Assembly (NCBI GenBank): GCA_025062095.1
Contig: JANXAZ010000019.1
Location: forward strand, 1-57,798
Direction: 5' to 3'
Origin: Geminicoccaceae bacterium
Lineage (GTDB): Bacteria; Pseudomonadota; Alphaproteobacteria; Geminicoccales; Geminicoccaceae
Length of the DNA stretch: 57,798 bases
Each line of letters opens with the position of its first letter. Positions within the stretch are counted from its first letter, which is position 1. The translations under genes and the position numbers were made by a program. The notes below the pieces were generated by a model that ran no database searches, was not told where the DNA came from, and worked only from the letters and a program-made list of their open reading frames with translations. This document shows positions 14,642 through 35,839 of the stretch, one piece after another.

Positions 14642-14653
14642 ACGGCCTTGCCT

Positions 14654-14697
14654 TTCCGTTCGCGCGTCGCGGCCGTTCCGTTCGCGCGTCGCGGCCG
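14654..14697. repeat. Perfect tandem duplication of a 22-bp unit
   Basis: Two adjacent identical 22-base copies (14654-14675 and 14676-14697), each starting TTCCGTTCGCG and ending GCGGCCG. They lie in the 165-base convergent gap between the CMD gene and fhcD. No coding role. Confidence 0.9.
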
Positions 14698-14788
14698 TCG
14701 CTCGGGACGCGGGCCGTGGCGGACGGCTCCGATCCGCTCGGTTCGCGAACGGTCGGGCCCGATCGGTGCTCGCGCGGACCGGGCGGCC

Positions 14789-15724
14789 TCACGGCGCCGC
14801 CGGTGGCGTCGCCGCGGCGAGCAGCTGGTGCAGGTGGAAATGATAGGGGCCGAGCGCGCCGCCGTAGTTCCCGGCGTCGACGGCCACGAGCCCGGAGGCG
14901 CGGCCGAGGGCGCAGGCCGCGCGAATGCCCTCGACCATGGCACGGGCGACCGAGGCCTCGTCGAGCCCGTCGATCACGATCTCGAGCACCGAGCCGACCT
15001 CGGGCGGCAGCGCGGAATCGGCCAAGAGCCCGCGCAAAGTCGGACAATAGCGGTGGTTGGTGGAGGCCGCGAGGCCCTTGTAGCGCGATCCCACCTTGGA
15101 TCCCGAGCGCACGATCCCGCCCGGGAAGGGCAGGATCACGTTCGGCACGCGGGCGATCGCGGCGACCGCCGCTTCCGCCGCGCGCAGGGCCGCTTCCGGC
15201 CGCTCGGCGAGGAGGAGGAAGTTGCCCCCGCCCACCCCCTTCGTCACCCCCACCCGGTCCTCGACCAGGAACTCGCCCTCCATCACGGGAATCCGCCAGA
15301 AGCGACGGGAGCCGATGCGCTTGCTCGTCTGATAGCCGTCGCCGAAGAAACGCAGGCTGCGACCCAAGGGCAGGGTGCGCTCGGCGTCGAGCCCCGACCA
15401 GGCGGCGGCGGTGGGACAGGTGAGCACGCATTGGCCCACGCGCTTGACGAGCTGGTCGGCGAGCCTCTCTTCGCTCGTCGCGAAGAACAGCACCGCCACG
15501 CCCGGCCGCTCGTCCGGGGTCTCGTGCGGGGCGAGTCGGCGCTCGATGCCCGCCTCGCAGCCACAGGCGATCACCGAAGTGGCGAAGCCGGTCGCGGTCC
15601 GCGCCGCGGTTTCCGCCCAGCTCTCGCTCTCGGCGGTGATCAGAAGGCGCGTGGCGCGCATCGGGAAGGCTTCGGCGAAGCTCGGCCGGACGAGCACGCC
15701 CGAAAGCTCGAGGGTCTCGCTCAC
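14789..15724 (-). CDS. fhcD: Formylmethanofuran:H4MPT formyltransferase subunit
   Basis: Catalytic formyltransferase of the bacterial Fhc complex, moving the formyl group from H4MPT to the methanofuran analogue in the cytoplasm. It is a close Ftr homologue of 311 residues. Recognisable stretches are SVIACGCEAGIE, the GDGYQTSKRIG segment, GVGGGNFLLL, PFPGGIVRSGSKVGS with YKGL, STNHRYCPTLRG, and the C-terminal NYGGALGPYHFHLHQLL. The start is the GTG at 15724, overlapping the fhcA stop as GTGA, so the pair is translationally coupled. fhcB and fhcC are not adjacent; they lie 12 and 15 kb away on the opposite strand. Confidence 0.97.
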   Translation of the reverse strand: MSETLELSGVLVRPSFAEAFPMRATRLLITAESESWAETAARTATGFATSVIACGCEAGIERRLAPHETPDERPGVAVLFFATSEERLADQLVKRVGQCVLTCPTAAAWSGLDAERTLPLGRSLRFFGDGYQTSKRIGSRRFWRIPVMEGEFLVEDRVGVTKGVGGGNFLLLAERPEAALRAAEAAVAAIARVPNVILPFPGGIVRSGSKVGSRYKGLAASTNHRYCPTLRGLLADSALPPEVGSVLEIVIDGLDEASVARAMVEGIRAACALGRASGLVAVDAGNYGGALGPYHFHLHQLLAAATPPAAP

Positions 15725-17415
15725 GGCGCGGTCGCTTCCTCGCGCGCGCGCGGAAGAGGCGGGGCGCCGCGGCAAGGGTGCACGACGACCTCCCCCGCTT
15801 CCGCGAGCTCGTCTTCGCCCAGAACGAAGCTCGACAGGCGCTGATCGCGGTAGCTTTCGAAGAACGCGCGGATCCGCGTCTCGATCGCCGGATCGAACTC
15901 GGGTCGCACGAGATGGACCGCCCCGCGCGGCTCCGGTTCGAGCACCTCGCCGTCGCGCACCACGAGCCGACCCCCTTTGAAGAGCAGATGCGCGCGCGCG
16001 AACATCCGCTCCCGATCCGGATCGTCGCGGTAGACGGCGACATCGGCCCGCGCCCCGGGCCCGAGATGGCCGAGCTCGCGCTCGAGGCCCAAAAGGCGCG
16101 CGGGTCCGGCGCGGGTCAGGATGGCGATCTCGAAAAGCGAATATTCGCGTCGGATCGAGGGCAGGATCGAAAGCGCGCGCGCCGCCCGCGGCAGGCGGGC
16201 GAAGGCGGCGTCGCGGAAATCCTTGTCCATGAGGAGCCGGACGAGTTCGGGATAACGGGTGAAGGCGGCTCCGTTGGGATGGTCGGTGGTGAGCGCGATC
16301 CGCCAGGGGTCCTCGACGAGCAAGAACAGCTCGAGGCCGATCGCCCATTGCAGGGCGTTGACGAAGCTCTTGTCCCGATAGCGGAAAGGGACGACGCCGC
16401 AGCCCGCCTCGCACTCGATGTCCATGCCCACCCAGCGGCGCGGATGCGCGTGCGCGGCGTTGCGGAACTGGGCCATGGTGTCGGCCGAAGCGGTCACGGT
16501 CTGGCCGAACATGACCTGGCCCACGTCCAGGCTCACGTTCGGGCAGGCGTTGACGAGTTCGGCGATCGCCGGCGCGGCGGAAGAGAAGCGCCGGGGGCCC
16601 TCGCTGCCGTAGGCGTGGAACTGCAGATGGGTGAGGTGGATCCGCCGTCCCTCCATGGCCCGGATGGTGGCGAGCGTGCTCGCCGCATTGCCCGGCACGC
16701 CCAGGTTGCAGCCGTGGACGTGGATCGGATGGGGCACGGCGAGCCGCTCGAGGGCATCGGAAAGGGCCAGGAGCACGGCACGGGGGGTGACGCCGTAAGG
16801 GGCGGCGCGTTCGTCGAGGTCGAGTCGGCGCTGACCGTATTTGAAAGCCGCGATGCCGCCCGGGTTGACGATCTTGACCGCGAGCGCTCCCGTCGCCCGC
16901 AGCGTCCAGCCGACGTAATCGGCGATCGCCTCCGCGCCCGCGCCTTCGGCCAACAAGCGCAAGAAGAAATCGTCGTTGCCGAGGAGCACGTAGGCGCCGC
17001 GGTCGACGAGCGGGATGTCCGCCATCTCGTGGTGCGCGGCGCGTGCGTTGGCGGGCGGCATGGCGGGCTCGAAAGCGGCCGTGTAGCCGAGCCGGGCGTA
17101 ACGGTAGCCGGTGAGAAAAGACGAGGGCGTGACCTCGCCGGTTCCGGCGCGGCGCCCGGGCCCGCGGCTTTCGCGACGGGCGCGGTGCTCCTCGGCCATG
17201 AGCAGCCGGGCGATGGCCACCTTGCCGCCGCCGATGTGGCTGTGCAGGTCGATCCCGCCCGGCATCACCGCGCAGCCCGAAACGTCGATGGTCTCGGCGG
17301 GCGTGCCGGGAGGCGGCTCCGGAACGATGCGGCCGTCCGCGATCCACAGGTCGCGCACCGCACCGTCGATACCGTTGAGCGGATCGAAGATCCGCCCGCC
17401 CGTGAGCCGGATCAT
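15721..17415 (-). CDS. fhcA: Formyltransferase/hydrolase complex subunit A (formylmethanofuran hydrolase)
   Basis: Amidohydrolase-type subunit that hydrolyses formylmethanofuran to formate and free cofactor. 564 residues, related to archaeal FwdA/FmdA. Near the N-terminus it shows MPGGIDLHSHIGGGKVAIAR with the metal-binding histidines, then EPAMPPANARAAHHEMADIP, HPIHVHGCNLGVPGN, IHLTHLQFHAYGSEG, and TDHPNGAAFTRYP. All are conserved in the family, so the metal site looks intact. The ATG at 17415 is used. The gene starts a two-gene unit fhcAD. Downstream overlap with fhcD is 4 bases; the upstream neighbour mfnB is divergent, 85 bases away. Confidence 0.97.
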   Translation of the reverse strand: MIRLTGGRIFDPLNGIDGAVRDLWIADGRIVPEPPPGTPAETIDVSGCAVMPGGIDLHSHIGGGKVAIARLLMAEEHRARRESRGPGRRAGTGEVTPSSFLTGYRYARLGYTAAFEPAMPPANARAAHHEMADIPLVDRGAYVLLGNDDFFLRLLAEGAGAEAIADYVGWTLRATGALAVKIVNPGGIAAFKYGQRRLDLDERAAPYGVTPRAVLLALSDALERLAVPHPIHVHGCNLGVPGNAASTLATIRAMEGRRIHLTHLQFHAYGSEGPRRFSSAAPAIAELVNACPNVSLDVGQVMFGQTVTASADTMAQFRNAAHAHPRRWVGMDIECEAGCGVVPFRYRDKSFVNALQWAIGLELFLLVEDPWRIALTTDHPNGAAFTRYPELVRLLMDKDFRDAAFARLPRAARALSILPSIRREYSLFEIAILTRAGPARLLGLERELGHLGPGARADVAVYRDDPDRERMFARAHLLFKGGRLVVRDGEVLEPEPRGAVHLVRPEFDPAIETRIRAFFESYRDQRLSSFVLGEDELAEAGEVVVHPCRGAPPLPRAREEATAP

Positions 17416-17500
17416 CGAGGCTCGCGCTCCCCCTCGCGTTGCGAGGCGGTCTTACCGGGGGTAGGGACCGCTCGCCAAGGAACCCCGCGAGGCCCCGCCC

Positions 17501-18232
17501 ATGCGCGCTCCGCCGCTCTTCCCTTTTCGCCCGGCGCTTCTCGCGAGCGTGGCCGATCTCGAAGAGGCCGAACGCGCGCTCGCGCTCGGCGCGGAGGTCC
17601 TCGATCTCAAGGATCCGCGCGCAGGCGCCCTCGGGGCCTGGGAGCCGCGACGGCTCGCCACCGCCGTCGCGCGCTTGCGCCATCGGGCGGTCCTGTCCGC
17701 GACCACGGGCGATCTGCCGATGGATCCCCGATCGTTGCGCACCGCCGCCGAGCGGATCGCGGAAACGGGGGTGGACGTGGTCAAGGTCGGCTTCTTCGCG
17801 AACGAGGGACGAGAAGCGGTTCTGCGCGCTCTCGCTCCCCTCGCCGCGGCGGGCTTTCGCCTGGTCGCGGTGCTCATGGCCGATCGCCGGCCCGATCTCT
17901 CCGATCTCGCTCCTTTCGCGGAGGCCGGGTTCGCGGGCGTGATGCTCGATACCGCGGACAAGACCGGAGGCGGGCTGCGGGCGCGTCTCGACGAGGCGGC
18001 CCTCGCCCGTTTCGTGCGGGAAGCTCGGGATCTCGGTCTTCTGTGCGGGCTCGCGGGCTCGCTGGGGCTCGCCGACATCGCCCCGCTCGCCCGGCTCGGT
18101 CCGGATTATCTCGGCTTTCGCGGCGCGCTGTGCGGCGGGGCGCGCACCGATCGTCTCGATCCCGGGGCGTTCCGGCGGGTGCGCGCCGAACTCGCGGCCG
18201 CGCGCGGAGAAGCGGTTCGCCTCTCGGGCTGA
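17501..18232 (+). CDS. mfnB: (5-formylfuran-3-yl)methyl phosphate synthase
   Basis: TIM-barrel enzyme (DUF556) that makes the furan precursor of methanofuran from two glyceraldehyde-3-phosphate. 243 residues. The Schiff-base-type lysines expected for the family are visible in EVLDLKDPRAGALGAW, VVKVGFF and MLDTADKTGG, as is LAGSLGLADI near the phosphate-binding end and the terminal DYLGFRGALCGG.R. ATG at 17501, with GAGG 8 bases upstream. It stands alone on the plus strand between fhcAD and mfnF-like genes, and its last 127 bases are antisense to the 3' end of the mfnF-like gene. Confidence 0.9.
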   Translation: MRAPPLFPFRPALLASVADLEEAERALALGAEVLDLKDPRAGALGAWEPRRLATAVARLRHRAVLSATTGDLPMDPRSLRTAAERIAETGVDVVKVGFFANEGREAVLRALAPLAAAGFRLVAVLMADRRPDLSDLAPFAEAGFAGVMLDTADKTGGGLRARLDEAALARFVREARDLGLLCGLAGSLGLADIAPLARLGPDYLGFRGALCGGARTDRLDPGAFRRVRAELAAARGEAVRLSG

Positions 18233-19305
18233 TCGGTCTTCTCCTCGCGGGCGAGCAGGGCGACGGAAAGCGCCGGGGCGGCGACCCGCGCCCAACGCGC
18301 GCATTCGCCCTCGAGCCCGAGCAGGGCGGCGAGATCGAGGTGCGGCCGGCGCGCGCGTCGGGCGAGTTCCTCGACGAGGAAGGCTCCGCAGCCGGCGGCG
18401 ACGAGCGGAGCTTCGGCGGGAAGCTCGCCGCGCGAAAGGACGAGCGAGAGTCCGTCGGCGATCCGTCTGAGCTGCGCTTCGGCGAAGACGGCGGCGAGAG
18501 CGCGGGCCTCCGCGAGCGAGGCCGGACCGAGGTCGGTTCCGACCATGCGCAAGAGCCTGCGCGCGCTGCCCGCGACGGTCTTGGGGCCGCCGTCGGCGGC
18601 GGGGTGACGATCGAAGTCCTCGTCGAGGAGGCCCAAGAGCCGATAGACGTCGGCCGCGGTCGCGAACCGCTCGGCCATGAGGCCCACGAGCCGGCCGCGG
18701 AAGGGCGCGCGCTCGAGGAAAGCGAGGGCGGGCGTGCGCACCACGCCGTGGTAGACGAGCTCCCCTTCCGCCAGGCGTGCGGCGTCGTCGAACCCGCGCG
18801 CGCACACGCGCCCGCCGGCGAAGGGCACGAGATCGGTCGTCGTGCTGCCGATATCGACGAGGATCCCGGCCGCGAGCCGTCGGGCGAGGAGTTCGGCGGT
18901 GGCGAGCCAGTTCGCCGAGGCCACGGCGAGCGGCTCGGCCGCCGCCGCCTCGGGATCGAGGAAGCCCCGCGCGCTCCAGACCCGGATCGGCCGGTCCGGG
19001 AAGCGCGCCGTCGCGCGCGCGAGCAGCTGCAGGACACCGCTCCGTCGATCCGGGAAGAGGTCGACGAGCTCGCCCGTCATGGTGAGGGCGACGCGCTCGG
19101 GCGAGGGCCAATCCGCGAGCGCCTCGCCGAAGGCCGCCTCGAGCCGGTCCAGCCCTTCCCACAGCCGACAGGCGACCTCGCGGATCGCCCGCGGTTCGCC
19201 CTCGACGAGGAGCGCGGCCTTGAGGTGCGCTCCGCCCAGGTCCAGACCCAAGAGCACGGGCCCCGACCCGGGGGCCCGGGGGAGAACCAGCGTGTCGTCT
19301 TTCAC
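18106..19305 (-). CDS. MfnF-like ASKHA-fold protein of H4MPT-linked C1 transfer (methanofuran biosynthesis)
   Basis: 399 residues of the hydantoinase/oxoprolinase-related family found in bacterial H4MPT clusters and homologous to methanogen MfnF, which joins the furan diphosphate to glutamyl-tyramine. ASKHA phosphate motifs are LLGLDLGGAHLKAAL at the N-terminus and ILVDIGSTTTDLVPF in the middle; MTGELVDLF and VAAGCGAFLVEEL also fit. GTG start at 19305. The natural family end is near VALLAREE; the last 45 or so residues are arginine/serine-rich and come from reading antisense through the end of mfnB, so they may be dispensable. The start overlaps that of the divergent HisA-like gene by 14 bases. 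Confidence 0.85.
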   Translation of the reverse strand: MKDDTLVLPRAPGSGPVLLGLDLGGAHLKAALLVEGEPRAIREVACRLWEGLDRLEAAFGEALADWPSPERVALTMTGELVDLFPDRRSGVLQLLARATARFPDRPIRVWSARGFLDPEAAAAEPLAVASANWLATAELLARRLAAGILVDIGSTTTDLVPFAGGRVCARGFDDAARLAEGELVYHGVVRTPALAFLERAPFRGRLVGLMAERFATAADVYRLLGLLDEDFDRHPAADGGPKTVAGSARRLLRMVGTDLGPASLAEARALAAVFAEAQLRRIADGLSLVLSRGELPAEAPLVAAGCGAFLVEELARRARRPHLDLAALLGLEGECARWARVAAPALSVALLAREEKTDQPERRTASPRAAASSARTRRNAPGSRRSVRAPPHSAPRKPR

Positions 19306-20014
19306 CGTCGTTCCCGTTCTCGATCTCGAGGGAGGTCTCGTGGTCCACGCGCGCGCGGGCGCGCGCGAACGCTACCGCCCGCTCGCGGGCTCGCGGCTCG
19401 CGGATACGGCCGAACCTCGCGCGGTCGTCGCGGCCTTTCTCGCCCTCCACCCCTTTCCCGTCGTCTATCTCGCCGATCTCGACGCGATCGCGGGCCGCGG
19501 CGATCACCGCGCTCTTTTGGCCGCGCTCGCGGCGCGTTTTCCCACGACCCGCTTCTGGGTCGACGCCGGGATCGACACCGAGGAGAAGCTGCGCGCGCTC
19601 GCGGGTCTGCCACGGGTGCGCGCCGTGCTCGGAAGCGAGAGTCAGAAGGACGTCGATCTGCTCGCGCGCGCCCGCGCGCTCGTCCCGGAGGGGGTGGTGC
19701 TCTCGCTCGATTGGCGCGCGGACGAGCCGCTCGATCCGGCGGGCTTGAGCGAGCGACCGGAGCTCTGGCCCGAGGACGTGATCGTCATGACGCTCGCGCG
19801 GGTGGGAACCGGGGCGGGGCCGGATCTCGCGCGGCTCGAAGCGGTGCGCCGCGCGGCCGGACCGAAGCGGCGGATCTGGGCGGCGGGCGGGGTGCGCGGC
19901 CTCGAGGATCTCCTCTGTCTGCGCCGAGCGGGCTTCGCGGGCGCCCTCGTCGCCACCGCCTTCCACGAGGGCAGGCTCGGAAAGGCCGAACTCGCCCGGC
20001 TCGCCGAGGCATGA
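19292..20014 (+). CDS. HisA/HisF-related TIM-barrel protein of the H4MPT cluster
   Basis: 240 residues of the uncharacterised HisA-related family. The first strand VVPVLDLEGGLVVHARAG resembles the HisA start; VVYLADLDAIAGRGD, FWVDAGIDT, VLGSESQKD, LSLDWR and IWAAGGVRGLEDL follow the barrel order, ending with GALVATAFHEGRLG. This family is repeatedly found near H4MPT/methanofuran genes, but I know no demonstrated reaction. The histidine pathway is not otherwise present here. GTG at 19292 with GGAG 7 bases upstream is the only start that keeps strand 1. A strong inverted repeat follows the stop. Confidence 0.85.
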   Translation: MSSFTVVPVLDLEGGLVVHARAGARERYRPLAGSRLADTAEPRAVVAAFLALHPFPVVYLADLDAIAGRGDHRALLAALAARFPTTRFWVDAGIDTEEKLRALAGLPRVRAVLGSESQKDVDLLARARALVPEGVVLSLDWRADEPLDPAGLSERPELWPEDVIVMTLARVGTGAGPDLARLEAVRRAAGPKRRIWAAGGVRGLEDLLCLRRAGFAGALVATAFHEGRLGKAELARLAEA

Positions 20015-20028
20015 AATCACCCGCACGG

Positions 20029-20062
20029 GAACGGGCGCCGATCGCGCGACCGGCGCCCGTTC
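20029..20062. terminator. 12-bp stem inverted repeat between convergent units
   Basis: GAACGGGCGCCG (20029-20040), a ten-base loop, then CGGCGCCCGTTC (20051-20062), a perfect stem. No long T tract follows on either strand. It sits 15 bases after the HisA-like stop and just beyond the end of the fae 3' region, so it probably serves both transcripts. Confidence 0.65.
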
Positions 20063-20067
20063 TCGGC

Positions 20068-20316
20068 TCAGTCGCGTTTGAGGCCGATCAACCGGAGCAG
20101 GGTTTCCCACCAGCCCGTGCTCTGAGGAGCCGTCGGTCCCGCCGGCCGGACCGGAGCTTCGGGTTCCCCTCGCGCCTCCTCCCGCGGCCGTTCGGGTGGC
20201 GGAGAAGGGGCGCGCGGCGGGGCCGGAGGTTCCGGAGGCGGTGGAGGCGGCCGAACGCGTTCGGCCTCGCGAGCCCTCGCCTCACCGGCCGACGCAGGTG
20301 GGGCCGCTGGTTCCTT
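20068..20316 (-). other. Stop-free proline-rich frame in phase with fae after its UGA, no usable start
   Basis: Directly after the fae stop codon the same frame stays open for 82 codons to a TGA at 20068-20070. The translation is rich in Pro, Glu and Arg, with a run of six prolines, and ends STGWWETLLRLIGLKRD, which looks like an amphipathic, tryptophan-anchored tail. There is no ATG, GTG or TTG except a TTG near its end, so normal initiation is impossible. G/C at third positions is lower than in neighbouring genes. It may be untranslated 3' sequence, a relic, or a UGA-readthrough extension of Fae. It ends next to the hairpin at 20029-20062. Confidence 0.35.
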
Positions 20317-20826
20317 TCAATCGGCGCCGAAGGGATGCTTCGTCTTGTCCTTGCGCGCGACCACCGTGCGGGCGCGCGGCAGGCCGGCCACCGCGCGCTC
20401 GATCGCGAGCTTGGTGGCCTCGTAGTTGTACTGCTGGATCTTCCTGTCGTCCTGGGCTTCCCAGTGGATGAACACGCCGACCGAGATGAAGAGATCCTCG
20501 CACTCTTCCTCGGGAATCGTGCCCTCGGCGACGCAATCCGCGACCGCGAGCGCGACCGCGCGCTGCGCCGGGCCGAACATCTGGGTCGCCTGTCTGGCGT
20601 TCTTGATCGTGACCTTGTTGAACATCACGGTCGCGGGCTTGACCATGAGGTTGGGCTCGAGCACCGCGAGGAGCGCGTTCACCCCTTCTTTCTGATTGGT
20701 CAAGGTGAGCGCGAAGGCGGTCTCGGCCGGCGTGCCGCGCGGGCCGATGATGAGGTCGATGTGCGCGACCTCGTTGCCCTCGCCGACGAGCGCTTCGCCT
20801 ACGAGCATCCGATCGATCTTGGCCAT
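20317..20826 (-). CDS. fae: Formaldehyde-activating enzyme
   Basis: Catalyses condensation of formaldehyde with H4MPT to methylene-H4MPT, the entry step of the pathway. 169 residues, the usual length. The family sequence is evident: [20 protein letters not shown] (with the conserved active-site histidine), [51 protein letters not shown] and a KHPF tail. The ATG at 20826 has GGGGGAGG 7 bases upstream, an unusually strong site that fits high expression. The gap of 134 bases to the upstream CitG-like gene may hold a promoter of its own, though I see no clear -35/-10 pair. Confidence 0.98.
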
Positions 20827-20960
20827 GGGAAGCCTCCCCCTGGGGGTTGGGACCGCGAAACAAGCCCGCTGCTTAAAAGACGGGACGATCCTCGGCAATC
20901 CTCGCGATGCCGACGGCGGGGGCGCGCCTCGTGCCGGACCGCGGCCATGGCGCGGCTGCA

Positions 20961-21806
20961 TCACTTCGTTTCCGTCGCGAGGCGCAGGAGGCGGCGGGCG
21001 AAGAGCGAGGCCACGACGAGATCGGCCGTGGTCCCGGGGTTGATCCCGCGGGCCTTGAGCGCGGCATCGAAAAGCAGGAGTTCGCCCGCGAGCGTCTCGG
21101 GCCGCGCGGCGGCGAGCAGCCGCCGGGCGAAAGGAGCCGCTTCGGCCGCGAGCGCTCGTGCCGCGCCCGCTCCGAACTTGCGCGCCACGTGGCTGTCGGG
21201 GATGCGGGCCAGAAAGTGCAGGTGCAGCCCCGAAAGCGCCCAGGCCTCGCTCCAGCCGCGCGCTTCGAGCTCGTCCAAAAGCGGCACGCCGGTCGCGAAC
21301 AGATCCGCGAACCCGTGCGTCCAGTTCCAGGCGATGCGGTCGCGCTCTTCGGCCAGACGCATCGCTTCGCGGAGCGAAACCGTGGGCTCTTCGGCGACAT
21401 CGGCCTCCGCGACCCGTCCGAGCCCGCCCGGTGCGGCGAGCCGGATGGCGGCGTACAGATCGCGGGCGTCCTCGGGACCGGTGGCCGCGAGCACGGCCAC
21501 GACCGCTTCCGGCAGAGGATCCGGCCGCTCGGCGGCGACCGCCAGGGGCGTGCACAAGAGCAGGATGCCGAGATTGGTGTTGGTCCCGACCGCCTTTCGG
21601 GTCGCCGCGACCGCATCGAGGATCCGTCTGCCGAGCCGCGCACCGGATCTCGCGAGGGCGGGTGCGGCGGCCCGCGCGCTCGCTGCGAAATCCGCCACCC
21701 GCAGGCCGTGGCCTTCGGCGAAACGGTGCACGTTGCCGGGCTTGAGGGCCTCGAGCTCGGCCAGGCAGGCCGAAACGAAGGCGGCCGCGATCCGCTCCGG
21801 GCTCAT
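20961..21806 (-). CDS. CitG/MdcB-like (triphosphoribosyl-dephospho-CoA synthase family) protein of the H4MPT cluster
   Basis: 281 residues, related to the enzymes that build the prosthetic-group precursor of citrate lyase and malonate decarboxylase. The visible signature is [16 protein letters not shown] near the N-terminus, then [18 protein letters not shown], and near the C-terminus [22 protein letters not shown]. The family member in bacterial H4MPT clusters has no proven reaction; a ribosyl or phosphoribosyl transfer in cofactor assembly is a guess. No citrate lyase or malonate decarboxylase genes lie nearby. The ATG at 21806 overlaps the preceding stop as ATGA, making it the last gene of the operon that starts at 26775. 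Confidence 0.88.
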
Positions 21807-22696: not shown

Positions 22697-22713
22697 GGGC
22701 AGGCTCCGCCGGC

Positions 22714-23715: not shown

Positions 23716-24878
23716 CGCTCTCCTCCCCCCGCCGGTGCAGGATGCCGTGCGCGCCCGCGCGCGTCGAGCATCCGGGCGAGCAACAGGCGCTCGCGCTCGG
23801 CGAGCGCCCGGCGCACCGCCCGAGCGTCGTCGCCGCCGGCGCGGACCGTGGCGAGCGGCCGACCCGCGCTTATCCGCGTACCGGGCGGCGTGCGATCGCC
23901 CGCCCATTCCGGCCAGACGAACCCTTCCGGGACGAGGAGATCGCGGTCGGCGCGCACGATCGCCGTGCCCCGAAAACCGCCTTCCGGCCGCAGCGGCCGC
24001 TCGGGCAGCCGACCGCGGCAGGCGGCGACGTGCAAAGCCACGAGATTCGTCGCGAGCGCGGCTTCCGCCGCCTCGAGCGAGCCGCCCGGGCGCGGGTTGA
24101 TCTCCAGGAGGTGGAAGCTTCCGTCCTCGTCGAGCAGGAAGTCGGCGCTCGCGAGCCCGCGCAGGCCCAGAGCCGTGCCGACGGCGACGGCGGCGCGCGC
24201 GAGGCGGGCTCGGCTGTCCTCGTCGAGCGGGGCGGGAGCGAGCACGCCCTTGAAGTGCGGCGGCGCACCCGTGTTCCACTGCTCGCTCGCGAGAAGCGCG
24301 AGCACGCGGCGCCCGTCGCCCAAGAGCAGGATCGAGACCGGCCGGCCGGGGACCCGTCTTTGCACGTAGTCGAGCGGATGCGGCCGATCGACCGCTTCGG
24401 CCGGGCGCACGTGCCATCCCCCGCCCGCGCCTGCGCGCTTGACGAGCCAGCCCCGGCGTTCGGCCGGGAGCTCGGCTCGCGTCTCGGGGAAAGGGACGTC
24501 GAGCGCCCGGCAGAGCTCGCACAGTGCGAAGGGATCGACGGCGCGGGCCACGGTCGCCGGCGGATTGCCCAGGAGCTCGCGGCCGCGGGCGAGGGCGGCG
24601 AGCAGACGGGGTCGGCCTTCGAGCCCGCCGCCCACGAGCAGCGGCACGGGCGGCGGGGCGACGCCGCGGGCCGCGCGCGACAGCGCCCCGGAAGCGAGCG
24701 GCCCCGCCCGGCCGGGCGGGATCCGCAAGGCGAGCTCGGCGACCTCGCGCGTGTCGAGATCGGCGAAGCGGTCGAGAACGATCGGAACGAAACCGGCGCG
24801 CCGCGCCGATTGCGCGAGCGCCCGACCGGAGAGCGCGACGATCAGGATCCGCGCGCCCGCGCGCGCCGCTTCCGCCAT
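23712..24878 (-). CDS. ATP-grasp protein of the H4MPT cluster (Orf17-like)
   Basis: 388 residues with an N-terminal ILIVALSGRALAQSARRAG Rossmann-like region and an ATP-grasp core. The core shows GWLVKRAGAGGGWHVR (nucleotide-binding lysine region), DYVQRRVPGRPVSILLLGDG, GLASADFLLDEDGSFHLLEINPRPGGSLE (metal-binding acidic/Asn residues, quoted in part) and a C-terminal beta-barrel-like FRGTAIVRAD..VP..FVWPEWAGDR. It matches the ATP-grasp found beside mch and mtdB in methylotrophs, which is needed for the pathway but whose substrate is not established to my knowledge. ATG at 24878, five bases after the mtdB stop; the upstream reading frame is a shadow. Confidence 0.85.
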   Translation of the reverse strand: MAEAARAGARILIVALSGRALAQSARRAGFVPIVLDRFADLDTREVAELALRIPPGRAGPLASGALSRAARGVAPPPVPLLVGGGLEGRPRLLAALARGRELLGNPPATVARAVDPFALCELCRALDVPFPETRAELPAERRGWLVKRAGAGGGWHVRPAEAVDRPHPLDYVQRRVPGRPVSILLLGDGRRVLALLASEQWNTGAPPHFKGVLAPAPLDEDSRARLARAAVAVGTALGLRGLASADFLLDEDGSFHLLEINPRPGGSLEAAEAALATNLVALHVAACRGRLPERPLRPEGGFRGTAIVRADRDLLVPEGFVWPEWAGDRTPPGTRISAGRPLATVRAGGDDARAVRRALAERERLLLARMLDARGRARHPAPAGGGER

Positions 24879-24883
24879 CGCCT

Positions 24884-25786
24884 TCAGCCCGCGGCGAGTT
24901 CGCGCGCCCGGGCGAGCGTCTCTTCGATGCCGATGAACCGGCGCGGCTCGGCATCCCGCATCGAGGCCAAAAGGGCGTGCTCGGTCTTGAATTTGAGCCG
25001 GCCCACGGCGAGCGCCCCGATGCCCAGGGCCCGCGTACCGGAAAGGGGCTTGCCGTCGTCGGTGGGCTCGACGCCCTCGATCCCGGAGGGCGGGACGGCG
25101 TTGACGTCGACCGCGACCAGAAGCTCCCGCGCCGCTGCGAGCTGCTCCGCCTCGAGGATCCGGATCCCCGCCTTGCCGGCGGCGAGCACGATCTCGGCGC
25201 GGGCGAGAAGCGCCTTTTTCTTCTCGGCGTCGGAGCCGTCGGCGCCTTCGAGGCGGACGCCGAAGCGCCCGCCGAGCTCGCCCGCCGCCTGGCGGACGCG
25301 CGTGGGCCCGTCGTGGCCGACGAGGGTGACCTCGGCTCCGGCGAGCGCGGCCATGAGCCCCGCGATCCTGCCCACGGGGCCGGTCGCCCCGAACACCACG
25401 ACGCGTCTGCCGGGAAGATCGAGACCCGAGGCGCGCAGGGTTTTTTCGACCACCGCGATCATCGCCGCGGCGGTGGTGAAGGCGCCCGCGGGATCGGCCA
25501 TGAGCGAGATCTGGAACCGAGGCGGCAGCATCGCCGCCCTGGCCGCCTCGAGCATGTCGAGGGCCAGAAGCGGATCGCGGCCGCCGACGAGCATCGCCGT
25601 CGCCCGACCGTGGTCGGGTGCGCGCGAGAAGATCGCGTCTTGAACGAGCGGGCGGATCTCCTCGAGCGTGACCTGGGTGTAGGGCAGGATGTGGTCGAAG
25701 CCGGCATCGGCCGCCATGTTGACGTCGAAAGGGCTCACGTTCTTGAGCGGGGTCACGAAGTGCAAGACGCTCGGCACCTGTTTCAC
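24884..25786 (-). CDS. mtdB: NAD(P)-dependent methylene-H4MPT dehydrogenase
   Basis: Oxidises methylene-H4MPT to methenyl-H4MPT. 300 residues, family length. The N-terminal substrate domain reads SVLHFVTPLKNVSPFDVNMA; the Rossmann motif is VVVFGATGPVGRIAGLMAAL, and the ending LAVGRLKFKTEHALL matches MtdB/MtdA proteins. MtdA works on folate and MtdB on H4MPT; the surrounding H4MPT genes favour MtdB. GTG start at 25786 overlaps the stop of the RFAP synthase gene (GTGA). The pair puts cofactor synthesis and use in one transcript. Confidence 0.95.
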   Translation of the reverse strand: MKQVPSVLHFVTPLKNVSPFDVNMAADAGFDHILPYTQVTLEEIRPLVQDAIFSRAPDHGRATAMLVGGRDPLLALDMLEAARAAMLPPRFQISLMADPAGAFTTAAAMIAVVEKTLRASGLDLPGRRVVVFGATGPVGRIAGLMAALAGAEVTLVGHDGPTRVRQAAGELGGRFGVRLEGADGSDAEKKKALLARAEIVLAAGKAGIRILEAEQLAAARELLVAVDVNAVPPSGIEGVEPTDDGKPLSGTRALGIGALAVGRLKFKTEHALLASMRDAEPRRFIGIEETLARARELAAG

Positions 25787-26775
25787 GGCTCGGGCTCCGG
25801 TTCGGAGGTCGACGGAAAGGCGAGGATCTCGGCCGGGCGGTTGCGCCCCGCCACGACGCGAAAGCGCAGCCCCGAAGCGGCGAAGCGCCGTTCGGCGTCG
25901 ATCCGGGCGGCCTCGGCCGAGACGACATCGGGGAACAGCGCCCAGCCCGTGGGCCCCCAGGAGGTCTGACCGACCCCGCGCACGCCCCGCGCTCCGAGCC
26001 GGGCGAGAACCTCCGCCACGGCGGGGCTGGCGAAGGCTCCACCGCCCTGAAAGGCGGCGAAGCGCTCGCCCATCGCGCGTTGGATCTCGGCCAAGGCCTC
26101 GGCCACGGGCGCGAATTCGGCGCGCACGAGCCCGGGCAAGAGGCGCAAGAGCACGAGCCGGCACAAAGACCCCGCGCGTTCGTCGCGCTCGGGCGAGAAG
26201 CTCGCGAAGGCCGCCTTTTCGGCCGCACCGTGCACCCCTTGCCGGGCGGGATCGAAGACGAGGAGGATCCGCCAGGCCTCGGGGAAAGGCAGGCGCAGGA
26301 TCAGAGGCGGGGGCAGCCGGTCTTCGGGAGCGCGGCCGCCGTCCACGAGGAACCCGCCGCCGGCGAAGGCCTCGAGCCCGATCGCCGACCGTGCGCCGCG
26401 CTCCAAGAGCCCGGCGATCGCCGCGAGCGGCTCGGATCGGCCGAACAGCCGCGCGAGGCCGGCACCGATCGCGAGACCGAGCTGGGTCCCCGAGCCGAGC
26501 CCGGCGTGCGCCGGGATGGCCTCGCGGATGCGCACCGCCACCGGCTCGGCGATGCCCCAGGCCGCGCGCAAGGCGGCGAGATGGCGCGCGGCGCGCGCCG
26601 TTTCCGGCCCCTCGACACCCTCGGCGTCGCGGCGGAGCTCGACCTCGGTCGCCACCCCCTCGATCGCGAGACCGAGGCTGCCGAAACGCCGCCCGAGCGC
26701 GCCCGAGAGGTCGAGGAAGCCGAAATGGAGCCGCGCCGGTGCGCGCACCCGGACCCGCTCGATCCGCTCCCCCAC
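25783..26775 (-). CDS. mptG: Beta-ribofuranosylaminobenzene 5'-phosphate synthase
   Basis: GHMP-superfamily enzyme that condenses 4-aminobenzoate or 4-hydroxybenzoate with PRPP, the first committed step to H4MPT. Visible motifs: VRAPARLHFGFLDLSG, then AIPAHAGLGSGTQLGLAIGAG, the GHMP phosphate loop, FAGGGFLVDGG, and a C-terminal GVGQTSWGPTGWALF. The GTG at 26775 gives a 330-residue protein with the expected N-terminus; an ATG 57 bases upstream is possible but adds an arginine-rich tail. First gene of the six-gene minus-strand operon ending at 20961. pabABC, 5 kb away, may supply its aromatic substrate. Confidence 0.93.
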   Translation of the reverse strand: MGERIERVRVRAPARLHFGFLDLSGALGRRFGSLGLAIEGVATEVELRRDAEGVEGPETARAARHLAALRAAWGIAEPVAVRIREAIPAHAGLGSGTQLGLAIGAGLARLFGRSEPLAAIAGLLERGARSAIGLEAFAGGGFLVDGGRAPEDRLPPPLILRLPFPEAWRILLVFDPARQGVHGAAEKAAFASFSPERDERAGSLCRLVLLRLLPGLVRAEFAPVAEALAEIQRAMGERFAAFQGGGAFASPAVAEVLARLGARGVRGVGQTSWGPTGWALFPDVVSAEAARIDAERRFAASGLRFRVVAGRNRPAEILAFPSTSEPEPEP

Positions 26776-26906
26776 CCTCCGGCTCTCCCTCCCGCTCGCG
26801 CGGGGTCTAGCCCTCCGCGCGGCGGAGAGCAAATCCGCTCGGCGCCTTGCCCCCCGGCCTGCGCCCTCTAGATCGGCTCTCGATCGCGAGAGAGGGGAGG
26901 CCGGTC

Positions 26907-27311
26907 ATGGCCGAAGGACAGAAGCTCAAAGTCTACAGCGAAGAAGAGGCGGCCGAACGGCTCGCGCGCGAACTGCCGCACTGGCGCGTGGAAGGCGGCT
27001 GGATCCGCCGCACCTACCGCACCAACAGCTGGAAGGGCACGCTCATGGTGATCAACGCCGTCGGTCACCTGGCCGAGGCGGCCTGGCACCATCCGGACAT
27101 CACGGCCTCTTACGCCTGGGTCGAGGTCCGGCTCAAGACCCACGACCACAAGGGCATCACCGACAAGGACTTCGCCCTCGCCAAGAAGATCGAAGAAGTC
27201 GTCATGTGGCAGCCGGCGCTCGAGGGCGGCCCGCTCGAGGGCACGCCCCAGAACGACCTGCGCTTCGCCTACATCAAATACGACAAGCCGGCGACGCCGA
27301 AGACCGGTTGA
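26907..27311 (+). CDS. Pterin-4a-carbinolamine dehydratase
   Basis: 134 residues of the DCoH/PhhB fold, which dehydrates 4a-hydroxytetrahydropterins. LPHWRVEGGWIRRTYRTNSW, VGHLAEAAWHHPDITASYAW and VRLKTHDHKGITDKDFALAK contain the expected His and Trp residues. ATG at 26907 with AGAGGGGAGG six to seven bases upstream. Divergent from mptG with 131 bases between them. No phenylalanine hydroxylase gene is present, and the enzyme is common in bacterial H4MPT clusters, so a role in pterin cofactor protection or synthesis is likely but not shown. Confidence 0.92.
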   Translation: MAEGQKLKVYSEEEAAERLARELPHWRVEGGWIRRTYRTNSWKGTLMVINAVGHLAEAAWHHPDITASYAWVEVRLKTHDHKGITDKDFALAKKIEEVVMWQPALEGGPLEGTPQNDLRFAYIKYDKPATPKTG

Positions 27312-27387
27312 GAAGCGCGCGGGTTCCCCGGCCCCTCCTTCGGGGCTAAGCGGAGCCCGAGGCGGAACGATCGGGGGCGGGGGAAGC

Positions 27388-28617
27388 GTGCAGGCATCCC
27401 GAGCGAGGCTCGAGCGCGAGGTCGTCTGCCCCTTCTGCGCGCTCTTGTGCGACGATCTCGAGGTCGCGGTCGAAGGCGAGCGGCTCGCGGTGCGGGACAA
27501 GGGGTGCGCACGGGCGCGCGAGGCCTTCGCGCGCCCGTTGCCCGAAGACCGCCGCCCGCGCCTGCGCGGGGAACCCGTCCCGCTCGAAGCGGCCGCGGGC
27601 CGCGCCGCCGAGCTCCTGGGCAGCGCCGGGCTGCCGCTTTTCGCCGGCCTCGAGGCCGATCTCGCCGGTCTGCGCGCGGTGGTGGCCCTGGCCGAGCGCA
27701 CGGGCGGGGTGGTGGATCCGATGACCGGGGAGGGCGCGCGCGCGCAGCTCCGCGCCGTCCAACGCTCGGGCTGGGTCGCGGGTACGCTCGCGGAGGCCCG
27801 CAACCGCCCCGATCTCGTGCTGCTCGTGGGCGACGGCTGGCGGGCGGCGGCACCGCGCCTGTTCGAGCGGGTGCTCGCACCCGCCGCGCGGCTCGACGAG
27901 CGCCCCCGCCGTCTCCTCCAGCTCGGCGGTGCCCCGCCCCGCGAGCCGGAGATCGAACATCTGCCCTGTCCCGAAGCCGCGCTCGCCGAGCAGGTGGCGC
28001 TCCTGCGCGCGCTGTTGCGCGATCGACCGGTCGCCGCCCCCGAGTCCCTCCGGGCCCTCGCCGACGCGATCCGCACCGCCTCGTATCGGCTGCTGCTCTG
28101 GGCGACGGAGAGCCTGCCGGCGCCCGCCGTCCTCGTCCATCACCTCGCCGCCCTCAGCCGCGAGCTCAACGCACGCGGGCGCGCCGTCGCCTTGCCGCTC
28201 GCCTCGTCTCCGGGCCCCGTGACGGCCCGCCAGCTCCTGCTCTGGCAGACGGGCGTGCCGGATCCGGTGGGCTTCGCGGACGGCGCTCCCGAGCAGGATC
28301 CCGTCCGCTGGGCGGGCGAACGGCTGTCGGCCGAGAAGGCGGCGGATCTCCTGGTGTGGATCGACGCCTCGGGCTTCCGGCCGCCTCCGGTGGTCTCCGT
28401 TCCCGCCGTCTTGCTGATCCGCGCGGGCATCGACCCGCCCTTCGTGCCCGAGGTGCTGATCCCGATCGCCACCCCCGGCCTCGACCATCCGGGGGATCTC
28501 TACCGCACCGATACGGTGGTGGCGCTGCGCGCCCGCGGCCTGCGCCGCACGGCGCTGCCGAGTGCGGCCGAGGTGCTCGCGGCGATCGCCGGGGCCCTTC
28601 CCGATCCGGCGCGCTAA
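27388..28617 (+). CDS. fhcB: Formyltransferase/hydrolase complex subunit B
   Basis: 409 residues, homologue of archaeal FwdB/FmdB that in bacteria serves as a structural and cofactor-tail-binding subunit without molybdopterin redox activity. The N-terminus has the relic cluster motif VVCPFCALLCDDLEV and a later DKGCARAREAF. A Rossmann-like middle (LVLLVGDGWR) and a TSYRLLLWATES segment follow. GTG start at 27388 after a GGGGGCGGGGGAAG tract. It forms a short plus-strand unit with the pterin dehydratase, away from fhcAD and fhcC. Its TAA shares bases with the TAG of the convergent DUF447 gene. Confidence 0.93.
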   Translation: MQASRARLEREVVCPFCALLCDDLEVAVEGERLAVRDKGCARAREAFARPLPEDRRPRLRGEPVPLEAAAGRAAELLGSAGLPLFAGLEADLAGLRAVVALAERTGGVVDPMTGEGARAQLRAVQRSGWVAGTLAEARNRPDLVLLVGDGWRAAAPRLFERVLAPAARLDERPRRLLQLGGAPPREPEIEHLPCPEAALAEQVALLRALLRDRPVAAPESLRALADAIRTASYRLLLWATESLPAPAVLVHHLAALSRELNARGRAVALPLASSPGPVTARQLLLWQTGVPDPVGFADGAPEQDPVRWAGERLSAEKAADLLVWIDASGFRPPPVVSVPAVLLIRAGIDPPFVPEVLIPIATPGLDHPGDLYRTDTVVALRARGLRRTALPSAAEVLAAIAGALPDPAR

Positions 28618-29183
28618 CGGGGCTCGTCGGGGCTCTCCGCGCGCGCCTTCTCGAGCCAGTCCCAGGCTTCGCGTTCGGCCTCGCCCGCGGTCTTGTCGAC
28701 GAGCGGGCGCAGCCGGGCGAAGCCCTCCTCGATCTCCGCGCTCGGCAAGAGCCGGCGGCGGGAGAGGAGGATGGCCGCTTCGATGACGGCGAAGCGCGCC
28801 CGGTTCAGCCCCTTGAAGGGCGCGTGCTGGGCGGTGTGGACCACCCGGCACAGAAAACGCGGCCGCAGGGCGTCGGGTTCGACCGCGACCACCTCGAGCT
28901 CGTCGTGGGCGAGACAGGCCGCCAGGCGGAAGCCCGGGATCCGCTCGGTCGGCACGACCGGCCAATCGCGCCTGCGGCCGGTCACGCAACCGGCGAAGAC
29001 GCGCACCTCGTCGGTGTAACACGCGCTCGCGAAAGGACGGCGCTCGAGATTGGCGAGCGTGGTCGAGGGGCGAAAAGGCGCGATCACCACGAGATCGCCG
29101 CGCTCGATGAGACCCAGGGGGGCGACGTGCGGCCGATCGCGGTGATCGAGGGTGACGACGATCGCCTCGCGGATGAACGGCAT
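28614..29183 (-). CDS. DUF447 family flavin-reductase-like protein
   Basis: 189 residues. The N-terminal half has the split-barrel flavin-binding look (MPFIREAIVVTLDHRDRPHVAPLG, FRPSTTLANLERRPFASACY in part, VRVFAGCVTGR) seen in FMN-binding domains. VVHTAQHAPFKGLNRARFAVIEAAILLSRR is the hallmark of this archaeal and methylotroph family. Function not established; its constant association with H4MPT genes suggests a role in cofactor synthesis. The start overlaps the preceding stop by one base (TGATG), so it is the second gene after the dihydropteroate-synthase-like gene. Confidence 0.85.
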   Translation of the reverse strand: MPFIREAIVVTLDHRDRPHVAPLGLIERGDLVVIAPFRPSTTLANLERRPFASACYTDEVRVFAGCVTGRRRDWPVVPTERIPGFRLAACLAHDELEVVAVEPDALRPRFLCRVVHTAQHAPFKGLNRARFAVIEAAILLSRRRLLPSAEIEEGFARLRPLVDKTAGEAEREAWDWLEKARAESPDEPR

Positions 29184-30583
29184 CAGCGCTCGCCCCCGCC
29201 GCGGCCGAGGAGGGTGACGCCGGGGGCCTCGTGGCGGTCGCGATCCGCGCGCGGAAGATCGACCGCGCAGCCCCAGCGCAAGGGTTCGTCTTGCACGTAG
29301 CGTTTGCCGAGGCGGAAGGCGATCTCGGCCTTGGCGATCTCGTAGCCGAGATAAAAGGCGTGCGCTCCGTCCCTTTCGACCCCGAGGAGAGGGAAGAGGT
29401 CGTAAGGATCTCGGCTCACGTGGTGGCCGTCGCGGTTGAAGACGTGCACCCCGTCGCGCGCGACGCGGATGCGGAAGTTGGGATCGCGGATCTGTGCCGC
29501 CTCGGCGGCGATGTCCTCCGGTTCTTCGGTGAACGGACGGCGATCGCGCAGGCACAACAGAGCCGGATCGATCCCTTGCGGGGTCGCGCCGCGCTCCTTG
29601 GCGGCGAAGAGGATCCGCCGCGCGCGATCGGCCTCCACCACCGCGCGCCGGCAGTGCGGGCTCACCCGCACGACGAGCACGTTGCGGATCGCGAGCTCCG
29701 AGCAGACCGCCATCAAGAGCATGGTGATCCCGCTGGTATCGGCGTCGGTGAGCTCGGTGAGGTTGCCGACCCCCATGAGCATCTCGGCCCGCGGCAGGCG
29801 CTCGCGCAGCGCGCAATAGCGCATCAGAGAGCGGGTGAAGCCGAAGTGGACGGGATCGAGGATCGGATCGGCGAGATAGGACTTGCCCGCTTCTTCGAGC
29901 CGCGCGCAAGCGCGCAGGAGGCTTTCGAGATCGCCCGGGCGCGCGGGCACGAGCACGGGTGTGCTCGCGCATTCGAACGCGAGACCGAGGGTGCGCTCGT
30001 CGAGGCTCAAGAGGAAGTCCGCCCCGGCCCGGGCGCCGCGGCGCAGCTCCTCGGGATCGCCCGAATCGACGCTCACCGCGAAGCCCGCGCTCTTGAGCGC
30101 GCTCACCGCCTCTTCGAGATGCGGGAAGGGACGGCCGGGAAGGCAGCCGAGATCGATCACGTCCGCCCCTTCGGCGGCGAGTTCGCGCGCCCGCTCGAGG
30201 ATCGCCTCCACCCCGAGCTCGGGGGCCTCGACGATCTCGGCGAAGATCCGACAATCGTGCCGCGAGAGATCGACAGGAGGCCCCTTGCGCCCGAGATGGC
30301 TCGGGAGATCGTCGAGTTCGTCGGGACCGCGCTCGAAGGGCACGCCGAAGTGGTCGGAAAGAGCCCGGAGATCGCCGCGGACGCGACCGGGCAGGACGAC
30401 CTTCGCCGCTCCTTCCACCGAGCCGAGCCGTCGCTTGATGATCTCGGGGGTCATGAGAGCGGCGACCTGCACGCCCATCTGACGGATTTCCCAAGAAAAG
30501 GGCGTCTCGCCCAGCCCCTCGAGCACGCGCCTGAGGCGCGGCTCGGCGAGCCGGCCGGTCAAGAAGACCAGATGTTCGCGCAT
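29183..30583 (-). CDS. Dihydropteroate synthase-like protein (DUF6513/archaeal type) for H4MPT
   Basis: 466 residues. The N-terminal 130 residues form a unique domain (LVFLTGRLAEPRLRRVLEGL...WEIRQMGVQVAALMTPEIIKRR), then a TIM barrel resembling DHPS: ADVIDLGCLPGRPFPHLEEA, VSVDSGDPEELR, YLADPILDPVHFGFTRSLMRY, MLMGVGNLTELTDADTSG. It probably joins the pterin diphosphate to the ribofuranosyl-aminobenzene phosphate, or a neighbouring step. ATG 30583. Transcribed divergently from fhcC with 98 bases between, coupled to DUF447. A second, FolP-type protein lies at 38613-39470. Confidence 0.87.
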   Translation of the reverse strand: MREHLVFLTGRLAEPRLRRVLEGLGETPFSWEIRQMGVQVAALMTPEIIKRRLGSVEGAAKVVLPGRVRGDLRALSDHFGVPFERGPDELDDLPSHLGRKGPPVDLSRHDCRIFAEIVEAPELGVEAILERARELAAEGADVIDLGCLPGRPFPHLEEAVSALKSAGFAVSVDSGDPEELRRGARAGADFLLSLDERTLGLAFECASTPVLVPARPGDLESLLRACARLEEAGKSYLADPILDPVHFGFTRSLMRYCALRERLPRAEMLMGVGNLTELTDADTSGITMLLMAVCSELAIRNVLVVRVSPHCRRAVVEADRARRILFAAKERGATPQGIDPALLCLRDRRPFTEEPEDIAAEAAQIRDPNFRIRVARDGVHVFNRDGHHVSRDPYDLFPLLGVERDGAHAFYLGYEIAKAEIAFRLGKRYVQDEPLRWGCAVDLPRADRDRHEAPGVTLLGRGGGER

Positions 30584-30681
30584 GGCGGCGATCGTGCCAC
30601 GACCGGGCTCCTTCGGCCAGGACGCGCCGCGCGCCTCGGGCCCTTGCGGGCGGAGGCGAACCGTGCCGAAGCTCGCGCGCC

Positions 30682-31491
30682 ATGACCGCCCGCATCCTCC
30701 GCCTGCGCGAATCCCCCGCCCTGCCCCTCGATCTTTCCCCGCTCCTGCCGGAAACCGTGCTCGGGCGCAGCGAGCGCGAGATCGCGGCCATTCCCTTGCG
30801 CCTGGGCAACCGGTCGGTGCGTTCGGGCGACTTGTTCGCGGTGCGGACCGCGCCGGAAGACACGGATACGCTCGTCCTCGAGGGCACGAGCCGGACCTGC
30901 GACCGGATCGGGGCCGGGCTCCGCGCCGGAACGCTCCGGGTCGTCGGTGACGCCGGGGTCGAGCTCGGCCTCGGCATGTCCGGTGGGCGCATCGAGGTCG
31001 AGGGCAGCGTCGGCGCCCTCGCCGCGGCGCAAGCGACGGGCGGCTTCGTGCGCGTCCGCGGCGCCGCGGGGGCGCGGCTCGCCGGAGCGCTTCCCGGAAG
31101 CGGCGGAACGGCGGGGGCGACGGTCGTCGTCGAGGGACGCTGCGGCCCCATGGCCGGAGAGGCGATGCGGCGCGGGCTCCTGATCCTGCTCGGCGGCTGC
31201 GACGAGCATCTCGGCTTCGGCTTGCGCGGGGGCACGGTGATCCTGCGCGGGGCGTGCGGTCCCGGGCCCGGTGCCGCGATGCGCCGCGGCTCTCTCCTCC
31301 TGCTCGACGGCACCGCCGATCCCGGCCCGAGCTTCGCCGACGCCGGAATCCACGATCTCCTGTGGCTCGCGCTCGTGCAGCGTCAGCTCCGGCTCCTCGG
31401 TCTCGGGGATCTCCTGCCGGGGCGCCGGGTGCGCCGCCTGCTCGGCGATCTCGCCGATCTCGGCAAGGGCGAGCTCTTGCTCTTTTCCTAG
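30682..31491 (+). CDS. fhcC: Formyltransferase/hydrolase complex subunit C
   Basis: 269 residues, homologue of FwdC/FmdC and of the GltB C-terminal beta-helix. The centre is a right-handed beta-helix with GXXG repeats (LGMSGGRIEVEGSVG, GGFVRVRGAAGARLAG, MAGEAMRRGLLILLGGC, GLRGGTVILRGACGPGPG). It scaffolds the complex. ATG at 30682 with no clear Shine-Dalgarno. It is a single-gene unit 15 kb from fhcAD, an unusual split since fhc genes normally form one operon. 362 bases follow before pabB. Confidence 0.93.
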   Translation: MTARILRLRESPALPLDLSPLLPETVLGRSEREIAAIPLRLGNRSVRSGDLFAVRTAPEDTDTLVLEGTSRTCDRIGAGLRAGTLRVVGDAGVELGLGMSGGRIEVEGSVGALAAAQATGGFVRVRGAAGARLAGALPGSGGTAGATVVVEGRCGPMAGEAMRRGLLILLGGCDEHLGFGLRGGTVILRGACGPGPGAAMRRGSLLLLDGTADPGPSFADAGIHDLLWLALVQRQLRLLGLGDLLPGRRVRRLLGDLADLGKGELLLFS

Positions 31492-35764: not shown

Positions 35765-35839
35765 CGTCGAGCCTCCCCGGGACCGACCCGTCGGAATCCA
35801 TCCACGCGATTCGTACGCGGGAACGGCGCGCGCGGATCG

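Follow-up and report, generated by a model that had tools for sequence, protein, structure and literature searches.

Organization of the fhc genes in the window

This analysis concerns the four fhc genes, and the tetrahydromethanopterin (H4MPT)/methylofuran module around them, in a stretch of DNA from a Geminicoccaceae bacterium (hereafter the window: 57,798 bp, 71.5% G+C, part of a 66-kb contig in a 3.3-Mb genome that is 99.57% complete). The genes do not form a contiguous, one-strand fhcBADC arrangement here but lie in three places and on two strands. The minus strand carries fhcD (14789–15709), encoding formylmethanofuran:H4MPT formyltransferase (TIGR03119, 425 bits, cut-off 292.6; PF01913/PF02741), and fhcA (15721–17415), encoding the amidohydrolase-type subunit (TIGR03121, 691 bits, cut-off 392.75). 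The minus-strand pair that the initial annotation had recognized (14789–17415) thus stands, with both members above their TIGR cut-offs. On the plus strand, fhcB (27388–28617), for the scaffold subunit, starts 9,973 bp from the fhcA start, and fhcC (30682–31491; TIGR03122, 171 bits, cut-off 130.65; 6s6y_C, E 1.7e-38) starts 2,065 bp beyond the fhcB stop, in keeping with the distances of about 10 and 2 kb first noted. Each piece adjoins cofactor genes, as had also been claimed: mfnB by fhcA, a pcd-like gene by fhcB, and DUF6513 and pabB-like genes by fhcC.

Across a new divergent junction of 85 bp (17416–17500, delimited in a three-genome alignment), fhcA faces an mfnB-like gene on the plus strand (17501–18232; PF04476, E 2.9e-63) for 4-(hydroxymethyl)-2-furancarboxaldehyde-phosphate synthase of methylofuran synthesis. 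It is followed by hyd (TIGR03123/MfnF-like; 18106–19305, minus; above the TIGR03123 cut-off, with a match to the MfnF model under its cut-off) and a hisA-like gene (19307–20014, plus; PF00977). A run of minus-strand genes comes next: fae, for formaldehyde-activating enzyme (20317–20802; PF08714, E 1.2e-71); genes for a CitG-like protein (20961–21785; PF01874) and a RimK-like ATP-grasp ligase (21803–22700; PF08443); mch, for methenyl-H4MPT cyclohydrolase (22714–23672; PF02289, E 1.2e-108); a gene for an ATP-grasp protein that we take to be orf17-like (23712–24870; PF02655), the starts of these last four being approximate; mtdB, for methylene-H4MPT dehydrogenase (24884–25735; PF09176); and a GHMP kinase-like gene (PF00288; longest frame 25783–26832, with the true start guessed from the alignment to be nearer 26780). 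The pterin-4a-carbinolamine dehydratase-like gene, pcd (26907–27311, plus; PF01329), is placed at an ATG conserved in three genomes, the longest frame running from 26847. Between fhcB and fhcC, on the minus strand, lie genes for a DUF447 protein (28614–29183, start ATG at 29183; PF04289/PF20766) and a DUF6513/pterin-binding-like protein (29183–30583, start inferred; PF20123, E 1.2e-30), both displaced partners in the comparison below; a new divergent junction of 98 bp (30584–30681) separates the latter from fhcC. Domain searches of the window place after fhcC, in order, pabB-like (plus), pabC-like (plus), rhodanese (plus, 34368), TPR (minus), folB (minus, 35840), metallo-beta-lactamase (plus, 36279), and SoxYZ (plus, 37268) genes, the right flank from rhodanese on spanning 34368–38086.

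A second complete fhc operon was sought throughout the genome and not found: the search returned one fhcD match, one match each above cut-off for fhcC and fhcA, and one full-length fhcB. Further fhcB matches are partial and fall in frames of 714–1,091 amino acids, presumably other molybdopterin enzymes.

The same locus in standard order in a relative

A member of another genus of the family, G018, holds on one contig the order duf6513+ duf447+ mfnB+ hyd− hisA-like+ fae− citG− RimK− mch− ATP-grasp− mtdB− GHMP− / pcd+ fhcB+ fhcA+ fhcD+ fhcC+, with the hisA-like gene in the same place and strand as in the window. To the right of fhcC follow rhodanese+, pyrroloquinoline quinone (PQQ) alcohol dehydrogenase−, folB−, and metallo-beta-lactamase+ genes, the contig stopping short of where SoxYZ could be seen. 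Because rhodanese, folB, and metallo-beta-lactamase genes stand behind fhcC in both, in the same order and on the same strands, the two are the same locus. At the G018 locus we did not find the window's pabB-like, pabC-like, and TPR genes, and the PQQ alcohol dehydrogenase of the window's genome lies on another contig (C132).

Within the module, the two orders differ in that the pairs duf6513–duf447 and fhcA–fhcD have traded ends, both flipped; the core of ~11 kb from mfnB to fhcB, fhcC, and the right flank keep their relative positions. Treated as signed blocks, the two orders have a reversal distance of 2, and a minimum path would consist of two nested inversions, one of the whole stretch from duf6513 to fhcD and one of the core from mfnB to fhcB.

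The genes duf6513, duf447, and mfnB occur together in 9 of 97 sources and are collinear in seven of these, including G018, Bosea, Ancylobacter, and Burkholderiales (collinear loci L023, L024, L031, L046, L068, L073, and L142); the other two are the window and a distant locus, L071. The whole arm duf6513+ duf447+ mfnB+ hyd− hisA+ accompanies B-A-D-C in three Burkholderiales loci (L031, L068, and L073), and the same arm minus duf6513, before which the loci end, in L032, L033, L047, L063, and L065 and likewise in L066. The collinear loci and the Burkholderiales arms make the G018 order the better candidate for the ancestor. Compared more widely, the window has the same genes as the fhcBADC operons of other Proteobacteria (Ancylobacter, Bosea, Xanthobacter, Burkholderiales) and differs in the exchange of fhcA–fhcD and duf6513–duf447. 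Jiella shares the window order fae…ghmp / pcd–fhcB, and Ancylobacter crimeensis and Bosea share it from citG on, where their loci end.

Distribution in the genus and family

By FhcD, the nearest named relatives of the window are Geminicoccaceae HOT.CON.139 (G003, 85% identical) and Pseudomonadota SRBZ.bins.76 (G002, 82%), both of the same genus. Between the gene left of fhcD (14243) and SoxYZ, their order equals that of the window in every gene, and farther out it is nearly the same; the gene at 43808 was not found in place in G002, nor those at 12278 and 12934 in G003. Misassembly as the source of the split order is unlikely, since two further metagenome-assembled genomes of this genus, whose accession prefixes differ, agree in it. 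Their agreement also dates the change: it came after this genus had parted from the four other family members with the module and before G000, G002, and G003 diverged.

The search for fhcD was positive in 7 of 31 family genomes. Three of the six genus genomes are without the module: in them we found no fhcD, no full-length fhcB, fhcC, or fhcA match, and no close SoxYZ. In the three that have it, all four subunit genes and fae, mtdB, and mch are open frames; PQQ alcohol dehydrogenase is present in genus genomes with and without the module. The suggestion that the layout marks a lineage was well founded, as it is common to the three module-bearing genus genomes and occurs in none of the four other module-bearing family genomes.

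In three of those four, G015 (Marinimicrococcus), G017 (HR40), and G019, the operon is broken too, but here fhcB is on a separate contig from fhcD–fhcC, with no other fhc gene in the stretch read. In G017, ~1.2 kb separates fhcA from fhcD. In G019, a third contig carries pcd and fhcA close to the GHMP gene, D–C is on another, and fhcB lies ~0.3 kb behind a PQQ alcohol dehydrogenase gene (C10:5372–6979, fhcB at 7272). The pieces in G017 cannot form one operon, as they lie on contigs of 317 and 612 kb and >12 kb from the ends; those in G015 could be near each other, the contigs being short (17.2 and 9.9 kb). Operon fragmentation recurs within Geminicoccaceae, and because pcd stays beside fhcB in the window's genus but goes with fhcA in G019, the number of distinct break-ups is probably two or more.

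Adjoining the module in the window are the metallo-beta-lactamase gene and a SoxY–SoxZ fusion (36279–38086). In G015, G017, and G019, relatives of the fusion (50–52% identical) have a PQQ alcohol dehydrogenase gene no more than ~5 kb away; in the three fhc-less genomes of the genus, all its relatives are distant (30–32%).

Gene order across bacteria

A relative was encoded by 280 stretches, and the 80 named loci compared were the best FhcD matches, ranked by similarity and not drawn at random. In 15 of the 80 there was too little context; among the 65 assessable loci, 52 have a contiguous, one-strand B-A-D-C arrangement (20 from Alphaproteobacteria, 14 from Betaproteobacteria, 8 from Gammaproteobacteria, and a few archaeal), in accord with the statement that bacterial fhc genes normally form one operon. 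The 13 others comprise four loci of Geminicoccaceae (L010, L011, L021, and L043), three of Anaerolineae, three of Planctomycetia, one of an archaeon, and L050 and L076. The latter two have the B-A-D-C order with ~1 kb between what was detected of B and what was detected of A, for which broken frames may be the reason. The Planctomycetia loci (L074, L083, and L089) resemble the window in their scattered fhc genes, fhcD having no fhcA, fhcB, or fhcC beside it, but belong to another phylum, and no further window gene was matched in them. The split order was not found in relatives of known methylotrophs: Methylocystis, Methylocapsa, and Xanthobacter loci keep B-A-D-C, no Methylorubrum locus being among the 80.

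Sampling the class evenly, we found fhcD in 12 of 389 genomes. The three Geminicoccaceae among these are all split, and eight of the nine others keep B-A-D-C, with the caveats that one of two copies in G083 is cut in fhcB by a contig end, that G104 has an A–D gap of ~0.5 kb, and that fhcC is partly detected in G104 and G350. The exception, G060 (L155), reads pcd–fhcB–fhcD–fhcC, with fhcA cleanly gone from between B and D; it is not within the 19.5 kb read and was not sought elsewhere. In G038 (L136/L166), of the same alphaproteobacterial family as G060, fhcA is on a separate contig. The two fhc sets of G083 are L156 and L157. Each of the four subunit trees places L157 with the Anaerolineales locus L069, and L157 retains the ligand Cys, so that an archaeal-type set may have been transferred or contigs binned wrongly.

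Passages of two papers give consecutive fhc locus tags for Methyloversatilis FAM5 and Methylosinus OB3b (PMC5023235, PMC3615186), and in a passage of a third the four fhc genes of Methylophaga thiooxydans have the non-consecutive tags 1429, 1334, 1520, and 1442 (PMC6548844), so that exceptions beyond those counted may exist. Among the titles and abstracts listed in the literature surveyed, outside which lie most subscription journals, we found no report of a split fhc order in Geminicoccaceae; on Geminicoccaceae and H4MPT the survey offered PMC12590107, whose available passages are not on fhc.

Subunit trees

Trees were made from 59 genomes or loci chosen for having all four subunits, as quick builds with the Shimodaira–Hasegawa-like approximate likelihood ratio test (SH-aLRT) as the single support value; the alignments excluded matches below 60 bits. 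The seven module-bearing family members form one clade for FhcA (SH-aLRT 99) and FhcC (97) and, weakly, for FhcB (86). FhcD neither shows nor rejects this clade: the free tree splits off G018, and the tree with the clade enforced is slightly better (approximately unbiased (AU) test, p 0.527). AU tests reject acquisition, modeled by a forced grouping of ten Xanthobacteraceae-type loci with the genus, for FhcA (p 0.0004) and FhcB (p 0.0016), the two subunits that this comparison covered. The trees and AU tests speak against separate origins of the fhc pieces.

Identity of FhcB and the predicted complex

FhcB is the weakest of the four subunit calls, scoring 171.5 bits against TIGR03129, under the cut-off of 327.8. 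None of the 12 genomes searched passes that cut-off, including the seven family members with a full-length match. Among solved structures, FhcB matches 6s6y_B best (E 2.6e-22, residues 60–400), a chain whose deposited name is formylmethanofuran dehydrogenase subunit B, and FhcB of the window groups among FhcB in the subunit tree. We take PDB entry 6s6y to be the Fhc complex of Methylorubrum extorquens. Window FhcB and FhcC match its chains B and C, and FhcA and FhcD pass their family models; the window differs from it in having the genes in three units on two strands.

At the tungsten-ligand column, window FhcB has Gly. Cys stands there in 9 of 59 aligned rows, archaeal-type ones, and the Cys or Sec ligand of W or Mo that marks subunit B of archaeal-type Fwd/Fmd is thus lacking. 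The N terminus retains CPFCALLCDD, a CxxCx3C segment that lies outside the stretch matching 6s6y_B. Next to 6s6y_B this motif seemed special, but it is common, CxxCx3C being present in 48 of the 59 chosen FhcB rows (among the 11 without it, one, L156, is cut by a contig end). This iron–sulfur-type motif is kept in 48 rows, the tungsten-ligand Cys in just 9. FhcB of G018 (L091), from the standard operon, has a degenerate motif, SPFNALGSDD, and that of L073 (Methylibium) reads SPFCALLNDD.

Passages of earlier work describe FhcB as a scaffold for FhcA and FhcD (PMC10100899) and the making of formate from formyl-H4MPT by Fhc with bound methylofuran (PMC8141765). The four subunits of the window would still make one complex, in which FhcD would move the formyl group to methylofuran, FhcA would hydrolyze it to formate, and FhcB and FhcC would serve as scaffold. 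With no tungsten-ligand Cys in FhcB, nothing suggests a different reaction, and the chemistry is probably ordinary for Fhc.

Predicted transcription units and the junctions

The genes would be read as three transcription units: fhcA–fhcD away from mfnB, pcd–fhcB away from the GHMP gene, and fhcC away from duf6513. The divergent gaps measure 85 bp between fhcA and mfnB, 98 bp between duf6513 and fhcC, and ~130 bp between the GHMP gene and pcd–fhcB if the guessed GHMP start holds. In G018, duf447–mfnB and fhcB–fhcA each lie within tens of bases. On the proposed path, the fhcA/mfnB gap joins two ends that look operon-internal, neither of which would have carried over the promoter of its operon, and promoters there would have arisen after the rearrangement unless internal ones existed before it. 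Within this gap, TCTTA, TAGGGA, GCCAA, and TTGC (17439) are invariant in the three genomes. TTGCGA-17-TAGGGA toward mfnB and TTGGCG-18-TAAGAC toward fhcA resemble overlapping promoters and are putative. A scan of 14600–32000 for the σ70 consensus returned 0 promoters, and 9 terminators were called there, against 7.1 in shuffled sequence.

A new bidirectional promoter in the 85-bp gap could tie the catalytic pair to methylofuran synthesis, and the scaffold subunits to H4MPT genes, in an enzyme that no longer needs co-transcription, a change repeated variously across the family. We think this unlikely; if true, it would show in nature that an enzyme of several subunits can stay stable when freed from co-transcription.

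Discussion

It is very likely that a Geminicoccaceae sub-lineage descends from an ancestor in which a standard cluster changed its gene order in place, and that this cluster encodes an ordinary Fhc and H4MPT/methylofuran module. The layout is best explained as a lineage-specific order variant of a known operon and not as an independently assembled pathway, which the initial annotation had raised as a possibility. Had the fhc pieces been acquired separately and set beside pathway genes, the patchy occurrence of fhcD (in the family, in the class, and in half of the genus) and the failure of the free FhcD tree to unite the family would follow readily. Yet G018 carries this locus, shared right flank included, in the standard order, FhcA and FhcC firmly and FhcB weakly cluster with the family, and the AU tests reject the grouping with Xanthobacteraceae for FhcA and FhcB; of all the explanations considered here, we hold separate acquisition the least probable.

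Two other explanations accept an inherited cluster and differ on why it was split. The split could have been selected for separate regulation of FhcA–FhcD versus FhcB and FhcC, each at the promoter of a cofactor step. Retention of the order in three genomes, whose Fhc subunits are 68–88% identical to those of the window, the short divergent gaps with invariant AT-containing blocks, and the repeated break-ups in the family would all fit, but shared ancestry alone explains the retention, the break-ups in sister genera separate other genes, and the consensus promoter scan of the region found none, so that selection of this kind seems improbable. Still less probable is decay, with the split as one stage in the loss of the pathway from the lineage. 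Half of the genus genomes do lack fhcD, full-length matches to the other subunits, and a close SoxYZ, but where the module exists its four subunit genes, fae, mtdB, and mch are all open, and PQQ alcohol dehydrogenase is present, though it is so in the module-less genomes as well.

Several points weigh against rearrangement in place as we have described it. The inferred ancestral order is kept in just one family genome, G018, and the single-inversion intermediate appears in none of the seven module-bearing family genomes. The left flank of G018 beyond duf6513 has no match to window genes, which leaves the left outer breakpoint unpinned. A search for inverted repeats at the breakpoints gave 97 pairs, of which the 25 longest are scattered and GC-rich; no recombination mechanism is seen in these, and two excision-and-reinsertion events would fit the same end state. 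A distant locus, L069, has mfnB and duf6513 on opposite strands. Finally, the free FhcD tree sets G018 apart from the other six family members (three changes), and all trees were built by a quick method with one kind of support value.

Rearrangement in place corrects a tempting inference, that scattered genes mean separate origin: here, synteny points to the shuffling of an inherited cluster where it stood. The family also offers a natural experiment in which the same complex comes from one operon (G018) or from two or three pieces in four other genera, and the value of co-transcription for assembling a four-subunit enzyme becomes testable within one family.

Other features of the window

Several candidate features were set aside. 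The frame at 19302–20110 has internal stops and is no gene, and the frames at 17452–18078 (minus) and 29231–30685 (plus) are antisense to mfnB and duf6513, respectively. A tRNA-Pro(cgg) called by ARAGORN at 32267–32354 is antisense within the pabB-like frame and is probably a false call; no RNA family reached its gathering score in the window. To the right of fhcC, pabB-like, pabC-like, folB, and dihydropteroate-synthase-type genes (31854–39929) mark the region as a wider pterin block. To the left of the module, a frame of 1,854 amino acids (4177–9741) has bacterial Ig/cadherin-like and laminin-G domains and, to judge from these, perhaps encodes a surface adhesin.

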